Origin: Collinsella sp. An2
Lineage (GTDB): Bacteria > Actinomycetota > Coriobacteriia > Coriobacteriales > Coriobacteriaceae
Assembly (NCBI RefSeq): GCF_002160065.1
Contig: NZ_NFJW01000001.1
Coordinates: 248,001-312,000 of the forward strand
Direction of reading: 5' to 3'
Length of the DNA: 64,000 nt
Notes under the pieces: generated by a model
The model's input: only the letters and a program-made list of their open reading frames with translations
Databases searched by the model: none
What the model was told of the DNA's origin: nothing
In this document: positions 212 through 63,532 of the stretch, piece by piece
How positions within the stretch are numbered: position 1 is the stretch's first letter
Layout: every line of letters begins with the position of its first letter
Position numbers and translations under genes: made by a program

Positions 212-410
212 AGTTGCCTACCTCGAATTCAAGTTGCGTGCGCGCTTTAAAAGTTGATAGAGGTTTTCGGCCATAATCACCTCCAATTGAGGGCGATTAT
301 GGTCGTATCGCGCACGCAATTTTCATCGGGCGCACGCAATTTCAGTTGGGCGCACGTAACACCTGCCACGCGCACGTAACTCGACAACGGGGTACGCAAC
401 TCGCGTGGAG
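212..410. repeat. 20-bp-periodic inverted array B1
   Basis: The left side carries AGTTG-type words at 212, 232 and 252, exactly 20 bp apart. The right side carries five adjacent 20-bp units starting at 311, 331, 351, 371 and 391. Each of these begins with a 10-bp word close to CGCACGYAAY, the reverse complement of the left word, followed by ten variable bases. The centre is a hairpin with stem CCATAATC (271-278) against GATTATGG (295-302). The whole can fold into a long imperfect cruciform. A second copy of the design is at 62431-62700. There is no coding potential. Confidence 0.8.
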
Positions 411-62337: not shown

Positions 62338-62430
62338 AACTGGGTCTGAAGAATCGGGTCTGGAAAATTGAGGCCGTAAAGCCTGGCCTGTAAGCAGCGC
62401 CGGGCTCGCGATGCCGTCATGTGTCCGCTT

Positions 62431-62700
62431 GATGCGTGTTCGTGCTGATAGTTGCGTGCGTCCGGCACGAGTTGCGTGCCCCGTTTTCAAGTTACGTGCG
62501 CCAAACGAAAGTTGCGGGCGCAATTCAGCCATTTCGGGCCCCTTGGGAGGCGTTTTTTGGACGAAATCCTCCATCAACTTTTGCTGGGCGCACGCAACGG
62601 CGACGGGGCGTACGAAACTCGCATCGGGCGCACACAACTCCGACAAGGGGCGCGCAACGAGCGGTGGAGCGTACGCAACACTGATGGAAAGCGTGCAACA
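62431..62700. repeat. 20-bp-periodic inverted array B2
   Basis: The left side has GTTGCGTGCG-like words at 62451, 62471, 62491 and 62511 (and a decayed one at 62431), each 20 bp apart. The right side has complementary CGCACGCAAC-like words at 62589, 62609, 62629, 62649, 62670 and 62690. The centre (62521-62588) contains ATTTCG/CGAAAT and GGAGG/CCTCC inverted pairs. The word and period equal those of the array at 212-410. No gene is present in 62338-62794. Confidence 0.85.
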
Positions 62701-62794
62701 CGGGGTTTCCTTGCCGCGATGTTCGCGCAACCTGTCTCTAGGCAAGGTATCAGGTAGGATGTGAAGAAGGGGGTCGCGATATAGGGAGGCCAGC

Positions 62795-63532
62795 GTGTTT
62801 ACCGTCGATGAGATCAAGAGTCTGAATGAACTCGAGCTATGTGTCTACCGCTATGTTGCCACGCATCAGGAAGATGCCTGCTATATGAAAATTCGCGACC
62901 TTGCTGAGGCGGCCCATGTGTCTACGACGACGGTTCTTCATTTTTGCAAGAAGATGGGCTGCGACGGTTTTGCCGAGTTTCGGCTGAGATTTCGAGACTA
63001 TCGTCGATATCTTTCGGGGCATCGACAGCGTTACGATGCGAGTGAAATCACGCATTTCTTCCAGCGCGTAGGTGATTCTTCCTACCAGGCAGAAATCGAT
63101 CAGGTGGCATCGGTGCTCAAGGCCGCTCCATGCATCATTTTTGTAGGCGTAGGAAACTCGGCGTTCACAGCGCAATATGCCGCACGCTATTTTTCGAATG
63201 CCGGTGCCTTCAGCCTAAGCGTTACCGATCCATTCCATCCTGCAGAAATCAGCCAGGATCTTCCGGTCACCATAGTGGTGATTTCCGTTTCAGGAGAGAC
63301 GACTGAGACGTTGGACATTGCAAACAAGTTCAAGTTTCGTGGTTGTCCCATCGTGAGCATTACGATGAGTGAAAACTGCACGTTGGCACGGCTTGCCGAT
63401 TACCATTTGAGCTGCTATCTCACGCAAGTGAAGAAAGGCACGCTTGACCTTACAACGCAGGTTCCCATTTTGTATCTTGTGGAGCAGCTCGGTTATCGCA
63501 TGCTCGAGGATGGCGCCCCGGCCTCAGAGTAG
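62795..63532 (+). CDS. RpiR-family transcriptional regulator
   Basis: A 245-aa regulator. Its N-terminal HTH_6 domain (about 1-77, MKIRDLAEAAHVSTTTVLHFCKKMGCDGFAEFR) is followed by a SIS sugar-phosphate-binding domain (about 105-225; IIFVGVGNSAFTAQYAARYF and VVISVSGETTETLDIANKFK). RpiR proteins sense phosphosugars. The GTG at 62795 follows GGGAGG. It lies upstream of a PTS gene in the same orientation and probably controls it. Confidence 0.92.
   Translation: MFTVDEIKSLNELELCVYRYVATHQEDACYMKIRDLAEAAHVSTTTVLHFCKKMGCDGFAEFRLRFRDYRRYLSGHRQRYDASEITHFFQRVGDSSYQAEIDQVASVLKAAPCIIFVGVGNSAFTAQYAARYFSNAGAFSLSVTDPFHPAEISQDLPVTIVVISVSGETTETLDIANKFKFRGCPIVSITMSENCTLARLADYHLSCYLTQVKKGTLDLTTQVPILYLVEQLGYRMLEDGAPASE

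Follow-up and report, generated by a model that had tools for sequence, protein, structure and literature searches.

Dispersed intergenic arrays of inverted 10-bp words on a 20-bp lattice in Collinsella sp. An2

The window, a stretch of 64,000 nucleotides from Collinsella sp. An2, carries near its right end an array of short words (L039, 62430-62700) just ahead of the gene for an RpiR/SIS regulator (62795-63532, plus strand), the first gene of a beta-glucoside PTS operon. The left arm of the array (62430-62519, plus strand) holds words of the AGTTRCGTRC type that start at 62450, 62470, 62490 and 62510, preceded by a weaker one at 62430 (TGATGCGTGT). The right arm (62590-62700, minus strand) holds the inverted words, starting at 62590, 62610, 62630, 62650, 62671 and 62691. 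Steps within the arms are 20 bp throughout, save a single step of 21 bp between 62650 and 62671. Between the arms lies a core (62520-62589, minus strand; GCAATTCAGCCATTTCGGGCCCC..GCGTTTTTTGGACGAAATCC) with an inner word, TCCATCAACT, at 62570-62579, and the 20-bp lattice therefore continues through the core. Outside the right arm is a decayed part (62701-62732) that ends in GCAACCTG and is common to L040, a direct duplicate of the array that lies beyond the window, about 6.2 kb further downstream. Relative to the element as defined below, this copy is reversed, its A side being the right side, and a covariance model matches its core on the minus strand at G000:C1:310477-310609 (E 3.3e-22; G000 is this genome). 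This map agrees with the preliminary description, which placed a 20-bp-spaced array with one 21-bp step at 62431-62700. That description treated the centre as a mere turning point; the orientation does turn there, with plus-strand words on the left and minus-strand words on the right, but the centre is itself a conserved core with an inner word.

Matches to a pattern of two words at 20-bp spacing number 13 in the 64-kb window, compared to 0.56 expected from shuffles, and none of 100 window shuffles reaches 13, so that the preliminary description withstands its own test of word density against shuffled DNA. All 13 matches fall in two spots, namely the array above and a second one at 212-401, upstream of luxS. 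The second array has two words in its left arm (212-241, plus strand; words at 212 and 232), a core that forms a near-perfect hairpin (242-311, plus strand; AAAGTTGATAGAGGTTTTCGGCCATAATCACCTCCAATTGAGGGCGATTATGGTCGTATCGC), and five inverted words in its right arm (312-401, minus strand; words at 312, 332, 352, 372 and 392). It is matched by the covariance model at G000:C1:248222-248354 with an E of 1.2e-27.

These two arrays are members of a dispersed family. Genome-wide, the pair pattern is matched 91 times and its reversed control not once. Loci read individually, together with a covariance-model search, give about 30 elements of about 150-300 bp, all in gaps between genes, which bears out the earlier proposal of a class of extragenic elements. 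Their plan is (AGTTRCGTRC + 10)n, core, (GCACGYAACT + 10)m, in which the core follows the form AGTTGATAGAGG n TTTCGGCCA ~25 bp TGGCCGAATC or, read in one orientation, AAAGTTGATAGAGG n TTTCGGCCA - about 25 bp - TGGCCGAATCGC, with the consensus AGTTGATAGAGGnTTTCGGCCA..TGGCCGAATCGC. Two landmarks in the core lie 51 apart in 18 of 20 A-B copies; by eye, two A sides are present in L033 and L056 and two B sides in L031, L032 and L048. Among 168 units, word spacing is 20 bp in 122 cases and 21 bp in one, and information amounts to about 0.9-2.1 bits at each of the ten word positions, with little in the spacer.

Other sequences lie beside some of the arrays. Another dispersed repeat (CACGGTTCCCGGCATGCATAATATCGCGCCCG..; L036:1530-1700, L044:2024-2190 and G000:C43:44726-45209) adjoins two arrays and occurs elsewhere too. 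Tandem repeats of 19 bp (CACCCAGCCGACCGATAT-type, L145:1525-1618) immediately adjoin the array at G000:C1:127.8 kb. A short open frame between two arrays (L038:2522-2860) resembles, by eye, the end of a Schlafen/AlbA_2-type protein.

Comparison of copies shows that arrays duplicate whole and gain and lose units. L031 and L032 have 174 bp in common at 88% identity, from first to last word, and do not share flanks. L039 and L040 (G000:C1:316.6-316.9 kb) have 308 bp in common at 84%. The arrays of each pair align with a single gap, exactly one 20-bp unit long. Words are conserved after copying: in four pairs of recent copies, changes occurred at 17 of 230 word sites compared to 73 of 541 other sites (Fisher p 0.009). 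Spacers of different copies are 56-66% identical beside the core, a value that drops to about 27-32% at the fourth or fifth unit; the initial view of the spacers as unconserved thus applies to the outer units, which approach background (about 27%), but not to the innermost ones. The drop from the core outward, coupled with the whole-unit differences, suggests that the core and inner units are copied and that outer units are gained or lost.

The word array is specific to this species. Neither 149 further genomes of the class nor two congeners, G025 and G150, contain it, and the orthologous sites checked in these two hold no array of the present family. A scan of 84,980 species found 71 scattered places, nearly all of them single matches, at about chance level. 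The preliminary description had proposed a search of related genomes for CGCACGYAAY-type words; none was found there, and relatives use other words. For example, the family in G025 has a 17-bp word (ACTTCTTRTGCAGAATG) at a 31-bp period, with a centre gap of 34 bp in 11 of 12 copies. In another genus, G022 and G176 have the word TGTCGCSCTRGGG at a 20-bp period, and G063, G171 and G178 have GTGCACCGAG at 19 bp around TTCTCGACCATTTT..AAAATGGTCGAGAA; G022 and G178 probably belong to Collinsella. The core of the 19-bp family is similar to the present one (TTTCGGCCATTTT..AAATGGCCGAA), and the present covariance model picks up one copy of that family at E 3.5e-4, making distant common descent possible. 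Relatives were sampled as stretches, and a de novo array detector, applied to 187 kb of G150 and to 600 kb drawn from five more genomes of the family, yielded one clear further array, L272, the remainder being GC-rich noise. The arms of L272, from another, Collinsella-like genus, match almost base for base, which could be due to a young inverted duplication or to arm correction. In IMG/VR there were six single chance-level matches for the present family, three for the 19-bp family and none for the 31-bp family; the array at 62430-62700 had no plasmid match and that at 212-401 no phage match. On these grounds a phage or plasmid origin was rejected.

Between species, the orthologous sites checked are empty or occupied by another element. 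G025 carries its own array (L192) at the site orthologous to L033, and the nlpA intergene is common to L206 of G025 and L049. These could be old shared sites at which the words were replaced, instead of fresh insertions. Two other long inverted repeats in G025 (G025:C27:1499-1570, AAAAGCGTGTCACAACTGACA..; G025:C2:70306-70628, GGAGGGCTGTCGGGGAAGGGG..) are also intergenic, at sites orthologous to arrays of this genome. Given its dispersal over about 30 gaps and the similar elements in relatives, the array looks like a mobile repeat that changes quickly, not an isolated curiosity. We speculate, as an idea that is probably wrong, that bacteria of this taxonomic family have one element plan in common, a conserved core with inverted arms on a 19-, 20- or 31-bp lattice, in which the word is replaced whole, genome-wide, between sister species. 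If so, a binding protein and its scattered target words would evolve in step, as in an arms race, and some sites would keep an array while the array's words change.

The placement of the arrays among genes bears on whether they act as RNA. The 27 placed arrays lie between 20 tandem and seven convergent gene pairs and no divergent ones, although this lack is not significant compared to a small genome sample, in which 4 of 55 intergenes are divergent. Arrays are usually found on the 3' side of genes; in 17 of the 20 tandem gaps the array is closer to the 3' end of the gene before it than to the gene after it (p 0.001, our count from the placement table). One interpretation is that the arrays are transcribed RNA elements, long hairpins with internal loops at mRNA ends that act in termination or 3' stabilisation. 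The agreement with gene direction of 10 of 13 A-B copies beside tandem genes (p 0.046, our count) fits this interpretation, as does folding that exceeds shuffles, with a z of -4.5 for the array at 62430-62700, -4.9 for the core region of the second array (228-360) and -12 for L272; any inverted repeat, however, would fold better than shuffles. We nonetheless regard an RNA element as rather unlikely. Six arrays stand past a clear intrinsic terminator (L035, L036, L049, L051, L052 and L053), including L035 after tmRNA and L051 after rpsJ, and no Rfam family matches the element. Two-sided changes are present in just 2 of 24 consensus pairs. When the arms of 20 copies are paired with those of other copies instead of their own, pairing is equally good in each 20-bp block, and A-C mismatches between arms are not avoided; 11 copies of the G025 family likewise lack arm covariation.

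A selected long RNA hairpin is thus not supported for the present family, and the words appear to be conserved as DNA, not as paired RNA; they are best seen as putative DNA sites. The preliminary description had offered two explanations for the spacing. The long RNA hairpin with periodic bulges was rejected, as pairing within compared to between copies gave no signal in two species. The alternative, a protein reading one face of the DNA, fares better in that DNA binding fits the data better than RNA does, but the helical-face part is weakened by the 19-, 20- and 31-bp periods of related families.

We estimate an even chance, roughly 50%, that the array belongs to a REP/BIME-like repeat that is specific to its lineage and dispersed between genes, and in which each arm is a row of putative sites for a protein that binds DNA, possibly a transposase. 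The core and the inner one to three units would be the part copied around the genome, presumably by transposition, and outer units would be gained and lost in whole 20-bp steps. Each 10-bp word may be a separate site for a DNA-binding protein, and a fixed 20-bp lattice that turns at the centre would allow a symmetric protein assembly on both arms. The likeliest reader would be the enzyme behind the spread of the element, a transposase or recombinase; alternatively, a domesticated nucleoid protein is possible.

The search for the mover covered several signs of transposition. No target-site duplication was recognised by eye at L031, L032, L039 or L040, whose ends are decayed and for which relatives are too diverged to provide clean empty sites. 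No word array was found to enclose a long interior with genes, and a transposase search that covered the Y1 family found no cognate transposase. The genome's one RAYT-like gene (L144:1050-2175; G000:C3 near 37.4 kb) is flanked by inverted CCATTGGGGACGGGTACAAATG-type repeats, with which it forms a REP-type system of its own in this genome. Both Y1 genes were read, and no words are near the RAYT-like gene or the IS200 gene; both were rejected as movers, the RAYT-like gene also because its flanking palindrome is a different one. The element class appears undescribed, based on a literature search that covered few subscription journals and returned no match. Its setting is gut-type actinobacteria, and its architecture is unusually clear and countable. 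Because the word, the period and the set of copies differ between close species, the spread of the element and the protein that reads it can be tested directly.

A different role for the same protein-DNA arrangement is that of a host chromosome-organising or insulator site, in which a nucleoid- or partition-type protein binds the words and arrays are kept for this function. There are plasmid centromeres whose repeats of about 20 bp are read by ribbon-helix-helix proteins, and the fixed lattice, the conservation of words after duplication, the position of arrays between transcription units and the species-specific words common to the whole genome are all consistent with such a role. However, systems of this type are normally conserved between sister species, whereas here, among members of a single genus, the word and the period change completely. 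The roughly 30 scattered copies, some of them recent local duplicates, are also more suggestive of spread, and the binding protein is a putative one. We therefore find this role unlikely.

Direct copies of arrays bracket several operons or genes. L039 and L040 enclose RpiR - PTS EIIBC - GH1 - GH5 - EIIA; the genes on either side, uvrA and def, are next to each other in both congeners, G025 and G150. Similarly, L031 and L032 bracket a GntR - mannose-type PTS - BtpA operon, absent from G150, between dnaX and ybaB-recR, and a fic gene, in a segment absent from relatives, stands between L034a and L034b. These direct copies may be the homology through which operons are gained or lost, and arrays around sugar-uptake operons suggest a route for the gain or loss of metabolic operons. 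In its strongest form, this reading makes each array a portable homology or attachment site of recombination-borne cassettes: an array on incoming DNA would recombine with one in the chromosome, and the operon inserted in this way would be left with direct copies on both sides. Most arrays stand alone, however, and no recombinase was found. In G025 the mannose-type operon adjoins ybaB-recR with no array detected there, suggesting that this cargo did not need an array. This last observation sets a cassette system back as the main explanation, and we judge it quite unlikely. An ordinary degenerate tandem repeat or a chance cluster of words, without function, is highly improbable: slippage is expected to add and remove 20-bp units, but it leaves dispersal unexplained, and chance is refuted by one core at some 30 loci with inverted arms and near-constant length, by words conserved where spacers are not, and by the lack of such arrays in shuffles and reversed-pattern controls.

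As a dispersed repeat of the kind we favour, the element can be compared to several known systems. REP, BIME and REPIN sequences are, like it, dispersed, extragenic, palindromic, often species-specific and arranged in variable modular clusters, and its roughly 30 extragenic loci and its 20 tandem, seven convergent and no divergent gaps extend the likeness. REPs are likewise placed between unidirectional or convergent genes, downstream of coding regions (PMC3733652). They are hairpins of 20-40 bp with an unpaired GTAG or CGTC tag, and the GTAG types go with RAYT transposases (PMC3733652, PMC3116915). Unlike REPs, the present core consensus, AGTTGATAGAGGnTTTCGGCCA..TGGCCGAATCGC, has no GTAG or CGTC tag at the base of the palindrome, the arms are lattices of 10-bp words without selective pairing, and the RAYT of this genome goes with the CCATTGGGGACGGGTACAAATG-type repeat and not with the present words.

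Other modular repeats share parts of this architecture. The BOX elements of pneumococcus have the structure boxA-boxBn-boxC, with units of about 45-60 bp in one orientation. As described, they are modular intergenic repeats with a variable number of internal units, as is the present element, which differs in that its units are 20 bp long and make up two opposed arms on either side of a core. The ends of Tn7-, Tn552- and Tn5053-type transposons carry several transposase sites. The element resembles such ends, and MITEs, in its inverted arms of sites repeated at about 20 bp, its small size and its intergenic position, and like MITEs it is copied as a unit, as in L031 and L032, which have only the array in common and end at the outermost words; unlike either, its arms have a variable number of units. 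The regular spacing of repeats with variable bases between them is reminiscent of CRISPR, which was rejected, as in the preliminary description, based on a degenerate repeat of only 10 bp and the turn in orientation, to which about 30 dispersed copies can be added. The element thus works like a REP/BIME or a MITE, departs from REPs in lacking their tag and their link to a RAYT transposase, and is distinguished by a turned lattice of short DNA words.
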